NCBI RefSeq assembly: GCF_035083965.1
Contig: NC_089724.1
Span: 1,514,501 to 1,578,500, forward strand
Origin: Branchiostoma lanceolatum
Taxonomy: Eukaryota; Chordata; Leptocardii; Amphioxiformes; Branchiostomatidae
Reading direction: 5' to 3'
DNA: 64,000 bases
The notes under the pieces are model-generated. The model was not told the DNA's origin. It worked only from the letters and a program-made list of their open reading frames with translations, and ran no database searches. Positions 584-56,100 of this stretch are shown one piece after another. Both the position numbers and the translations under genes were made by a program. Each line of letters starts with the position of its first letter. The stretch's first letter is position 1.

Positions 584-3500
584 GGTTCTGCATGGACCTG
601 CTGGCCTGGATGTCCTCCGAGCTCGGCTTCACCTACGAGCTGTACGCGGTGGCGGACGGGGAGTACGGGCGGTACAGGGACGACACGGGCGCCTGGACAG
701 GCATGGTCGGGGACGTGGTCGACGGGGTGCGTCAGGAATGAGTGAATGAATGAAGAGAGAATGAATGAATGAATGAATGAATGAATGAATGAATGAGCTG
801 TACGCGGTGGCGGACGGGGAGTACGGGCGGTACAGGGACGACACGGGCGCCTGGACAGGCATGGTCGGGGACGTGGTCGACGGGGTGCGTCAGGAATGAA
901 GGAATGAATGAATGAAGAGAGAATGAGTGAATGAATGAATGAATGAGTGAATGAATGAGCTGTACGCGGTGGCAGACGGGGAGTACGGGCGGTACAGGGA
1001 CGACACGGGCGCCTGGACAGGCATGGTCGGGGACGTGGTCGACGGGGTGCGTCAGGAATGAAGGAATGAATGAATGAAGAGAGAATGAGTGAATGAATGA
1101 ATGAATGAGTGAATGAATGAGCTGTACGCGGTGGCGGACGGGGAGTACGGGCGGTACAGGGACGACACGGGCGCCTGGACAGGCATGGTCGGGGACGTGG
1201 TCGACGGGGTGCGTCAGGAATGAGTGAATGAATGAAGAGAGAATGAATGAATGAATGAATGAATGAATGAATGAATGAATGAGCTGTACGCGGTGGCGGA
1301 CGGGGAGTACGGGCGGTACAGGGACGACACGAAACAGAGAGCCTTCAGAGTATGATACTCAAGTATGCTCAGAGTAAGGGAGTTCAATTATCCTTTGTGA
1401 GAGTCATGAACAGCAGACAGAAAGACATAGCATTTGCAAGAATCAATGTTCTACTGCACCAGGCACATATGGTGGTGAAGGAAGACTTTTGGCCCAAGGG
1501 GGTCAGGTGCCGTGAATGGATGTCAGAGAGGAGGTACAAAAGCAAGGGTGACAACACTGAGGATGGCGGTGAGAGAAACCAAGCAACTCATTTGAACGGG
1601 CCAGGAAAGAGAAACGGAGAAGCTCAGAAACTCAGCCTTGAAAATGCCAGAGTTCAGCAGTAAGACTCATGCGGATGTTACTCTGTCAGTTGGGTGCTAC
1701 AACTGTAGGGGAATCACAACATCTATCCCCTTCATCACAGAGTACTTACAAGACATTGACATATTAGCAATATCTGAGCACTGGCTGTACCCTCAGGCTA
1801 CTTCAGCCCTAGACAACTTGTTAATGACACACAGAGGTTGGGGCAAGGCAGATAGCAAGCTGACAGAACACACTACAAGTCACTGGAGGAGAGGCCAGGG
1901 CGGTGTAGCCTTTTTATGGAAAACGTCCATTGACTATGCTGTCCATAAGTTAGAAGATGGAAATGATAGAATCATAGGAATAAGAGTCCAACAAAAGAAT
2001 GGCCAGAAACTATTCCTCTTTGCAGTGTATTTCCCAGATTCAACTAAACCCATTGAGGAATACAGAGAACAAATAGACTATGTGAGAGAGATGTACAGAA
2101 AATACGAGAGCGAAGGAAATGTGATATTCCTCGGAGACTTCAATGCAGATATGGGGAGGAGCGGTGGTCCCAGAGGTAGAGGATCCTCATCCAAACTGGG
2201 CGATGAACTGATTGATATCACCCTTGAACTAGACCTTGTGTCCCTGAATTTAAGTCACCTATGCAAGGGTCCTCTGGAAACATTTCAAGGAAGTGGTGAT
2301 AGACAGTCCACAATCGACCACATATTAGTACCGTGCTCGCTACTTGCAGACACAATAGGATGTGAAGTCATGGATTACAATGAACTTAATATGTCAGACC
2401 ACAATCCCATCATTGCTCAGTTTTCCAACAAACTAAGAGAGTGGAAAGAGAGCAGTCCAGACCCACGGTTGAACTGGGAAGGTGTGAGGAGTCAACCAAC
2501 AGAAAACACATACAAGAGGAGAGTTTGTCAAAGGCTGCAATCAGCTCCAGTACCAACCGAAAAATCACAGGAGGCTATTGAAGATGAACTGAGCTTGATA
2601 ACTACTGTATTAAAAAGAGCAGCTGAAGAAACATTACCAACAAAGACAATAAGACGTCACCAGAAACCATACTGGTCAGCAACGCTTACAGATTGTCACG
2701 AAAAGCAAGTGAAATCATGGCTATTATGGAAAGAAGCAGGAAAGCCGAGAGGAAAAGGTAATCCTCTGTATGCAGATTACAAGAGCAGCAAGGGTCAGTT
2801 CAGAACTGAACTAAGAGAGGCAAAGCTTTTGCACGAGGCCAAAGAGAATGAGGAGTTAGCCTCATTGGCAAGCACAGATGACAAAAAGTTTTGGAGGAGA
2901 GTGAGGCAAAGAAAGGGCAAAAAAGACCAGCCACAGGCAGTCAAGGTGGGAGAACAGCTCATCACAGACCCTGCAGAAGTCAGAGAAACCTGGGCCAAGC
3001 ATTTCGAAATGCTAGGAAATGAACAAGAAGAAGAAGGTAGACTCTTTGATGATAACCATAAGAAGATAATTGAAGACGAGGTGAAAAGCATGGAAAAAGA
3101 AAGCCACAGTAATGCTGAGGTCATACTTGACGAGCCTTTTACTGTAGCAGAAGTAGCCTCAATCTGCAGAACACTTAAGAACAACAAAAGGGGAGGCAGA
3201 GATGGCTTAACCTATGAACACTTGAAGTATGCTGGTGAAGTACTGTGGGCTAGACTAACGTACCTCTTTAACGCAATAAGGGAATCAGAGCACATACCAG
3301 AGGCCTTCAAAAAGGGCCTCAAAGTTCCCTTACTGAAGCAGAACAAAACCAACAAAGCGGACTTGGACTCGCACCGCGGTATCACCCTACTACCAGTAAT
3401 ATCTAAAGTCTGGGAATCACTACTCTTCAACAGACTGAAACCATGGCTTAAGTCGAGGGGGCTTCCTCATGAGCTACAGAGTGGAGGACAGCTAGGATGC

Positions 3501-53100: not shown

Positions 53101-56100
53101 ATGTAAATTCATGTAGAGTTTATGGAAGGCATGTTAGTGCTTAATTGTAATAAGCTCACACCAGGATAGCAAACTGCTGCAAATGAAGGAGTATAATGGC
53201 ACTTTTTTCAAGCTAGCCCAACTAGCAAGGAAGCCACAAAATTAATGTACTCTTTATAACTTGATATTGCCTTCCTTTAACTCACTATTATATCCTAAAT
53301 TCTATCTTCTTGTTTTTTCAGGGTAAGTGTTCTTCTCTGGGAATGGAACCAAGCGTTACCACCTCTGTGTGCATCTCTGATCTCTGTCGTCTTGCATTGT
53401 ACATCAAGAACTCACACAGTTTTCAGAACTTACAATCATCATAGATAGTCTTCTCAAGCTTTTGTTTGGTCAATGGTAAGAAGTCACCATTCTTTAGTTT
53501 TACCCATAGTAATGGGTTTACTCAACAGTGCTTTATATGTAAGTTTTGTGAAGTTTATGAAGTTTCCAAATTCTATGATTTTAGCTAATCAATACTCTGT
53601 GTTCAGAACCCATAGCCGATGATATGCTTGAGAGTAAGCCGACAGCCGTGGTGAAACCTGCACAGAAGAAAAGAAAGAGGAAGAAGAAGAAGGAGCCTGC
53701 AGTGCAGACTTCGCAGGAACCTCAGAATCAGGAGACAGAACAACAGGAAGACTCAGATTCGGGTAGGCACTTTACAACCCAGGATCTAGCTGTCTAAAAA
53801 ATTATTCTAAAGCCATTTTAGATATTGTAGAATGGAACTTCTATTCTAATGTCATTAAATACAGAATAAGGTGCTGCTCATGATACTTTCTTGGCTAATC
53901 TACCTCACCCTCCCAAACAGGCGTTCTATCGCTCGGTAACGTTACCTCCCATAGCGGCCCTGCCCTTTCAAGCTGGTAAAATCACTTCTGGCGACGTCAC
54001 CACAAAACCAGCTTTCAGCCAATCAGAGGGTTGGCTTAAGCTCATTTAGAGCAAAAGCGCAAAGGACGCTGGGATGCTATCAACCAATCAGGTTACATCT
54101 TACATCGCTACTTTGGGTTCAGAGCAAAAATAACGACTGTTTGTGCCAAATAAGGCTAGCTCATTAATTATTCATGAGCAACTGTCAATAACTTCGCCAG
54201 AAGCGATTTTACAGGCTTGAAAGGGCAGGGCTGCTATGAGAGGTAACGTTACCGAGCAAATTAGCGGGCCTGTTGTGGAGGGTGATCTTCCTTTGCCCCA
54301 GAGAGTTCATATACGTTCATTCTGTGATTTTCATCTGTTACCGGTGGGACATCCAGGACAATGTGGTCCACCTGTAAGGCCAGAAGTTCTGAACATATTC
54401 AAATTACCTGTGTGCGAAAGAACTTGAAAATACTACATGTACATGTCAAACTCGGTGGAAGATGAAACACATTTTATTTCAAACTGCCCCTTCTACGATC
54501 ACGAAAGAAAGGAGCTGTTTAAAGAGGCCACCAAATTCCATCCTAATTTCTCCACCTTCACAGACAAAAAGAAAACTGCTCTCCTCTTAACATCACAAAA
54601 CCCACACATTATAGAAAAAGTGGGATCATTCATCTTCCACTGTCTCGAAAAAAGAAGTCGAACCCAATAGCTGAATAAGTAGAATTTAAGGTCAGTAGTT
54701 AGACCAGAGTAGTTACATTCTATAATGTTTCTCATTGTCTGTCCATCCTTTTCATGTCACATGTACTTGCAATTAGCCTACGGGCAAAAATTTGTAATAA
54801 ACTTTCTATTAAACTTAATTTCTTCCATTTGTCCCCGAGAAGGTTCGTACGTTCAGCCAGTAATCTTCATCAGCTACCAGTGGGACATCCAGGCCGATGT
54901 TGTCCGCCTGCGAGACCGGCTGGAGAAGACTGGGTACCCCTGCTGGACACTAAACCTTTGTTTCTTCCCCTTTGTCCCCCAGAAGGTTCGTACGTCCAGC
55001 CAGTAATCTTCATCAGCTACCAGTGGGACATCCAGGCCGATGTGGTCCTTTTTCGGATTTGAACATTGAATATAAGTATGTTTCTGTATCGTTTGTAAGT
55101 AACAGTGAGTTTGGTTTTTCCATTTGTCCCCCAAAAGGTTCGTACGTCCAGCCAGTAATCTTCATCAGTTACCAGTGGGACATCCAGCCCGATGTGGTCT
55201 ACCTGTAGGGCCTAAAGATTTGAACACTGATCCTTTGTTTCGTCAATTTTTCCCCCAGAAGGTTCGTACGTCCAGCCAGTGATCTTCATCAGCTACCAGT
55301 GGGACTTCCAGGCCGATGTGGTCCTCCCCCAGATCTGAACACTGAATCTAAGTATGTTTCTGTATTGTTTGTAAGTAACAATGAGTTTGTTCCTCCCTTG
55401 TTTTGTCCCCCAGAAGGTTCGTACGTCCAGCCAGTAATCTTCATCAGCTGCCAGTGGGACATCCAGGCCGATGTTGTCCACCTGTGGGACCGGCTGGAGC
55501 AGGCTCAGGGTACCCCTGCTGGACACTGAACCTTTGTTTTCTCCATTTATCCCCCAGAAGGTTCGTACGTCCAGCCAGTGATCTTCATCAGCTACCAGTG
55601 GGACATCCAGGCCGATGTTGTCCACCTGCGGGACCGGCTGGAGCAGGCTCAGGGTACCCCTGCTGGACACTGAACCTTTGTTTTCTCCATTTATCCCCCA
55701 GAAGGTTCGTACGTCCAGCCAGTGATCTTCATCAGCTACCAGTGGGACATCCAGTCCGATGTGGTTCATCTCCAGATTTGAACACTGAATCTAAGTATGT
55801 TTCTGTATCGTTTGTAAGTAACAGTGAGTTTGTTTCCTCCATTTTTCCCCCAGAAGGTTCGTACGTCCAGCCAGTAATCTTCATCAGCTACCAGTGGGAC
55901 ATCCAGGCCGATGTTGTTCACCTGCGGGACCGGCTGGAGCAGGCCGGCTACCCCTGCTGGATGGACATAGGCCAGATGGGAGGGGGGGACGCGCTGTATG
56001 AGGAGATCGACACTGGCATGAGGGAGTCCAAGGTAGGTTTAGTAATATTACGTCATGAAGGTTAGACACCCAGGTAATAAGATACGCAAGGTAACAGTTC

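Follow-up and report, generated by a model that had tools for sequence, protein, structure and literature searches.

Genes and exon-edge copies in the window

The 64,000-nucleotide stretch of the Branchiostoma lanceolatum genome analysed here (NC_089724.1, positions 1,514,501 to 1,578,500 of the forward strand; 'the window') carries four genes in which segments spanning a splice junction recur as copies within the adjoining intron. On the plus strand lie an ionotropic glutamate receptor (iGluR) gene with eight modelled exons (584–14325), a fatty acyl-CoA reductase gene of 514 codons (13 exons, 18518–32640), and five ankyrin exons (48985–52190) with two TIR exons (55854–56953) and a further last exon (57693–57928); the ankyrin and TIR exons were modelled, their membership in one transcript being presumed only. 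The minus strand carries a gene with four exons (46562–39618), for which we keep the label 'bZIP-like' given by an earlier, sequence-only reading of the window. Pfam searches identified Lig_chan in the receptor, NAD_binding_4 and Sterile in the reductase, ankyrin repeats and TIR_2, and returned no match for the bZIP-like protein; the receptor protein used in this search still held an intrusive stretch at exon d, which begins at 10244. A candidate sixth ankyrin exon near 53600 was excluded, as its frame, judged by eye, does not join. In total the models comprise 33 exons and 61 splice junctions.

Each of the 61 junctions (up to 60 exon and 20 intron bases) was compared by blastn with the whole window at E <= 1e-3. 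Copies beyond the native edge were found for nine junctions, belonging to eight exons (Table 1). Counting bZIP-like exon 2 once, there are 65 direct copies: 15 of receptor exon a, 11 of receptor exon e, 3 of reductase exon 1, 12 of reductase exon 5, 6 of bZIP-like exon 2, 9 of ankyrin exon 4, 1 of ankyrin exon 5 and 8 of the TIR exon. All 65 are on the same strand as the exon and lie in the intron adjoining the copied edge, which is the donor edge in three exons and the acceptor edge in four, the whole exon being copied in the remaining case. Every site named by the sequence-only reading is present, in four genes and with donor, acceptor and whole-exon cases; of the two ankyrin exons that it listed, exon 4 is indeed repeated, but exon 5 has one diverged spare copy and no array.

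Table 1. Native exons, their decoy copies and the retroelements inserted among them
Feature	Positions	Strand	Basis
iGluR S1 exon a, native; final 90 bases supply the coding portion of the repeated unit	584–726	+	gene model, PDB alignment
Donor-side decoy array of exon a	727–8560	+	tandem-repeat and edge scans
Non-long-terminal-repeat retroelement within exon a array; endonuclease and reverse transcriptase open reading frame (ORF) 1596–5159	1332–5792	+	
Second retroelement piece, 5'-truncated, in exon a array	6435–7453	+	kinship to first by eye
iGluR M3/S2 exon e, native	10970–11103	+	gene model, GluA2 alignment
Donor-side decoy array of exon e, 55-bp unit (52 coding bases and GTA)	11104–11749	+	
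Reductase exon 1, native	18518–18706	+	gene model, Pfam
Decoy of exon 1 donor edge with donor GTACTA and 111 coding bases	18763–18880	+	
Decayed copy of exon 1 donor edge, 82% over 33 nt	19304–19336	+	edge scan
Decayed copy of exon 1 donor edge, farther out, 79% over 47 nt	19789–19835	+	edge scan
Acceptor-side decoy array of exon 5 with 12 decoy acceptors; units mostly of 147 bp	24463–26223	+	
Reductase exon 5, native	26266–26443	+	gene model, Pfam
Six whole-exon decoys of bZIP-like exon 2 (AG, exon, GTAAGG), units 118–125 bp	44896–45629	-	
bZIP-like exon 2, native, 59 nt	45630–45688	-	
Decoys of ankyrin exon 4 acceptor edge, some full, some 29 bp long and lacking the splice AG, the outermost decayed	50983–51393	+	
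Ankyrin exon 4, native	51410–51508	+	
One diverged copy of ankyrin exon 5 acceptor edge	51839–51943	+	edge scan
Ankyrin exon 5, native; two copies in all	52092–52190	+	
Decayed TIR acceptor-edge copy, most distant, 76% over 72 nt	54292–54363	+	edge scan
Seven decoys of TIR acceptor edge, two unit types, AG lost in one	54820–55833	+	
TIR exon, native	55854–56032	+	

The term 'mirages', which the sequence-only reading applied to these arrays, fits, and the window's arrays belong to this already published amphioxus class (PMC3087553, PMC3902484; both are drawn on here in excerpt). The excerpts describe tandem copies of 5' or 3' exon/intron boundaries in units of 10–160 bp, with splice signals in many copies; they report mirages in the globin genes BflGb6 and BflGb9, cite Adh3 and other loci (PMC3087553), add PGBD5 and cite troponin C (PMC3902484), and there treat mirages gene by gene. 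In the window the unit likewise spans the exon/intron boundary at all nine junctions with copies, both 5' and 3' boundaries are affected, and many but not all copies keep their AG or GT (the 29-bp ankyrin copies, by eye, have no AG). What differs is that eight exons of four genes are involved within 64 kb, that one unit is a whole exon, that some outer copies have decayed and that one array contains retroelements.

The arrays vary in build. The unit of receptor exon a (162 bp) joins 90 coding to 72 intronic bases, GAAT repeats included, and the array holds 13 decoy donors recognized by the motif GGG/GTGCGT, a further full copy at 8475–8554 with an altered motif and one truncated copy. It is split by both retroelement insertions. 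The 3' ends of both elements adjoin a GAAT repeat immediately 5' of GAGCTG, and a preference of the elements for this repeat is possible; the first carries a 202-bp doublet at its 3' end (5384–5790), and the ORF of the second piece had no Pfam match. The exon e array has 11 complete decoy donors, GT being kept in 11/11, and a 38-nt partial copy. At reductase exon 5 there are 13 acceptors when the native one is included, and the spare copies of bZIP-like exon 2 keep both AG and GT in 6/6. For bZIP-like exon 2 an upstream AG was rejected, since by eye its use would introduce a stop; with the AG before 45688 the frame is kept, and it is open in the model. In the receptor intron before exon d there is also a near-perfect palindrome (10079–10219; 69-nt arms, 96%, 3-nt spacer), the centre of which is an inverted match to 23 nt of the exon c donor edge and was the 66th match of the edge scan.

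Splice sites, geometry and chance

When the sites next to the exon bodies are used, the reductase reads through all its codons, the bZIP-like gene is open across its four exons, and the receptor aligns with GluA2 (PDB alignment) over 338 residues end to end, with zero gaps at both array junctions. The authentic edge is intact and the predicted protein normal, and the body-side site is presumably the one actually spliced. GT or AG is kept in 53 of the 54 decoys examined, an intactness that is partly selected for, as most of them were picked by an exact motif across the junction, only the 11 of M3 having been taken at fixed spacing and the 29-bp ankyrin copies being uncounted. Use of a decoy would bring a stop codon in 53/54 cases; the exception, an ankyrin decoy, would give an in-frame insertion.

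We simulated tandem duplications spanning one junction (20 per junction, three genes), and in 1100/1100 neither the coding sequence nor the splice site in use was altered. Where a duplicated segment runs from an exon into the next intron, the exon body with the first copy stays whole and the second copy falls in the intron; acceptors mirror this. An intron can lengthen in this way with no harm to the protein. That the arrays grow towards the intron thus says nothing in favour of a special process. The sequence-only reading had stated that the arrays always grow into the intron and that the genes stay in frame via the outermost site. As description this holds, all 65 copies being intronic and the models open, but as a pointer to a special process at junctions it does not, this being plain geometry. 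Selection for arrays that remain intronic, which it had also put forward, is unneeded, since geometry suffices.

Whether such arrays are denser than chance would give depends on the test. In a per-base rotation test, 9/61 junction-centred 80-mers had a copy nearby, while rotations gave 10.7 on average, and there was no excess; the arrays' own decoys count as background here and inflate the expectation. In an event test, with extra copies dropped, 8/25 tandem duplications were junction-spanning, where 2.33 would be expected (P=9e-4); the corresponding values are 8/18 against 2.67 for genic spans (P=1.3e-3) and 6/7 against 1.23 for strong genic arrays outside the retroelement (P=8e-5). Placements that fell within an exon, or whose overlap was too short, were excluded, multi-junction placements counted as spanning, and the event list was made by hand from this one 64-kb window, after the pattern had been noticed. 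These values supersede those of an earlier version (8/21 against 1.75, P=9e-5; strong arrays 6/10 against 1.11, P=1.6e-4); four non-junction events were added, two unit lengths corrected and only gene-intact placements allowed, which weakened the all-event values. Junction-spanning duplications are thus probably about threefold above random placement. The earlier claim of a density beyond chance survives in this event-based form, post hoc and for one window, but not in the per-base test.

Variation among copies and intron growth

Decayed copies occur at three loci, and at each the copy most distant from the exon is the most diverged: identity runs outward through 91%, 82% and 79% at reductase exon 1, and is 83% and 76% for the outermost copies of ankyrin exon 4 and the TIR exon, respectively. 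Native edges are often identical to decoys over the coding part and are not outliers among them. The variants of the reductase exon 5 array are reshuffled, 13/15 pairs of shared sites showing at least four combinations (8/10 without the three-state site 63).

Substitutions were compared at six loci, among copies picked either by motif or at fixed spacing; the set did not include the two ankyrin exons (4 and 5), any decayed copy or the receptor S1 copy located at 8475–8554. Among 43 coding differences, 19 are synonymous against 11.5 expected (P=0.007). The bias lies with the ten differences common to at least two copies, eight of which are synonymous against 2.58 expected (P=2.6e-4) and nine at third codon positions (P=3.6e-4); the 33 singletons include 11 synonymous changes against 8.96 expected (P=0.25), and the contrast between shared and singleton differences has P=0.012. 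TIR columns beyond 88 were dropped as misaligned by an indel (4/19 of the dropped differences are synonymous); with these rows restored, 23/62 differences are synonymous overall (P=0.016) and 10/23 of the shared ones (P=0.025). The synonymous bias of shared differences suggests that copies once occupied the functional exon position. Most simply, the shared variants would have arisen when a copy or its allele served as the functional edge, with decoys drifting freely afterwards. We found no earlier report of a synonymous bias among mirage copies in open-licence PubMed Central papers.

Decoys make up 7119 of the 38323 annotated intron bases (18.6%), with array limits set by hand and the stretch from ankyrin exon 5 to the TIR exon counted as one intron. 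They form 84% of reductase intron 4; in receptor intron 1, which has 8000 bases, decoys and the two retroelement insertions together take up 7834.

Fifteen tetranucleotide loci, collapsed by eye from 50 listed, were compared with the 30 donors. Four of them start within 20 nt after a donor, a limit chosen post hoc (P=2.5e-5), namely those of receptor exon a and reductase exons 1, 9 and 11, and mirages are present at 2/4 of these donors as against 2/26 others (P=0.075). This suggests, post hoc, that donor tetranucleotides seed slippage at two mirages, those of receptor exon a and reductase exon 1. The M3 unit of the receptor takes only GTA from the intron and contains no microsatellite. The repeats right after the donors of reductase exons 9 (29748–29759) and 11 (31378–31390) stand without edge duplication, and they are possibly early stages of mirages.

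Origin of the arrays

Our working hypothesis, which we consider probable, is that these mirages, minisatellites whose units straddle one splice junction, arose by ordinary tandem duplication that was tolerated and then amplified by slippage or exchange. A duplication would run from an exon into the adjoining intron, and it would be silent because the copy joined to the exon body still completes the exon and supplies a usable splice site, the other copy becoming intron sequence. Those that fall within exons would presumably be removed, selection acting only as a filter against those that break the coding sequence. The first pair may then expand and contract by slippage and unequal exchange, the functional edge being itself a member of the array, and stranded copies would decay in the intron, where they may receive transposons. 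Replication slippage is the likely amplifier. More tentatively, and with the odds in our view somewhat against it, the edge and its intronic decoys may form one exchanging pool, seeded in some cases by donor tetranucleotides, that has been a main engine of intron growth here. If so, selection on the protein would stamp a synonymous mark on 'dead' copies, which would record past alleles of the exon, and decoys could in turn rewrite the exon edge.

Several observations weigh against this picture of filtered duplication and exchange. Random duplication, merely filtered, does not predict the threefold event excess, for which a seed or bias is needed. At reductase exon 5 the copies show no steady outward fall in identity to the native edge, and neighbouring copies are only weakly more alike than other pairs (P=0.064). 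The M3 locus has no synonymous bias (2/10 against 2.49 expected), the division into shared and singleton differences was chosen after codon-position counts had been seen, and without reductase exon 5 the contrast between them weakens to P=0.025. In the excerpt of PMC3087553 the globin array is described as homogenized but with the units at the cluster boundary excluded, and this counts against a full exchange that includes the exon.

The event excess could instead mean that junctions are hot spots, at which repeats or secondary structure (the tetranucleotides after donors and the pyrimidine tracts before acceptors being candidate sequences), or breakage linked to transcription or RNA, start slippage. 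Such a junction-linked process would account for the excess of 8/25 over 2.33 and for the strong genic arrays (6/7 against 1.23), and the four donor-linked loci among 15, with mirages at two of the four, point the same way; yet the M3 unit, with GTA alone of the intron, has no microsatellite, the per-base test gave no excess, and events, 20-nt limit and window were all chosen once the pattern had been seen. We regard this explanation as unlikely, though the strongest of the three considered here. That decoys are functional, serving as alternative or poison splice sites that tune expression, we consider very improbable: their intact GT or AG and the stops that their use would bring (53/54 each) count in favour of such a role, but the intactness is partly built in by the exact-motif picking of most decoys, singleton differences give no sign of constraint, and the excerpt of PMC3087553 reports reverse transcription PCR that suggests regular splicing, undisturbed by the mirages.

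Stacking of repeated or allelic sequence by the assembler has precedents in the excerpted sources, in which lancelet PGBD5 copy numbers vary with the sequence version (2 or 7 and 3 or 6; PMC3902484) and the draft genome contained an aberrant assembly of a globin array (PMC3087553). Against this stand the differences among the copies, the decayed copies and the two retroelements at separate places in one array, and the PGBD5 repeats were upheld by resequencing (PMC3902484). An artefact therefore seems to us the least credible of these explanations, hardly to be expected here. Copy number differed between two haplotypes at the globin genes, according to the excerpt of PMC3087553.

The arrays can also be set beside two related systems. 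Internal tandem repeats of human segmental duplications are likewise minisatellites at exon–intron boundaries, but they sit within exons, from which splicing may remove them as new introns (PMC2812944), whereas the window's copies need a pre-existing intron. The intron-gain model of Rogers (PMC3087553) also involves tandem duplication beside splice signals, yet it makes a new intron, while the unit in the window spans an existing junction and a new intron is unneeded. In the models, the exons on either side of each copy-bearing intron join in frame, and two receptor junctions are collinear with GluA2. Eight cases in one window would allow the rate of origin, the amount of intron made and the exchange between decoy and exon to be counted, and the arrays are natural tests of splice-site choice, with up to 14 near-identical sites competing.

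A 45-bp array of about 11 copies in an ankyrin intron (49870–50373) matched no modelled exon edge in the edge scan and is therefore taken as an ordinary intronic array. On the minus strand, 61371–62288 holds a glycine-rich open frame of 305 aa with no Pfam match, and an intron of the bZIP-like gene (41400–41900) contains, by eye, several GACGTCA-like motifs.

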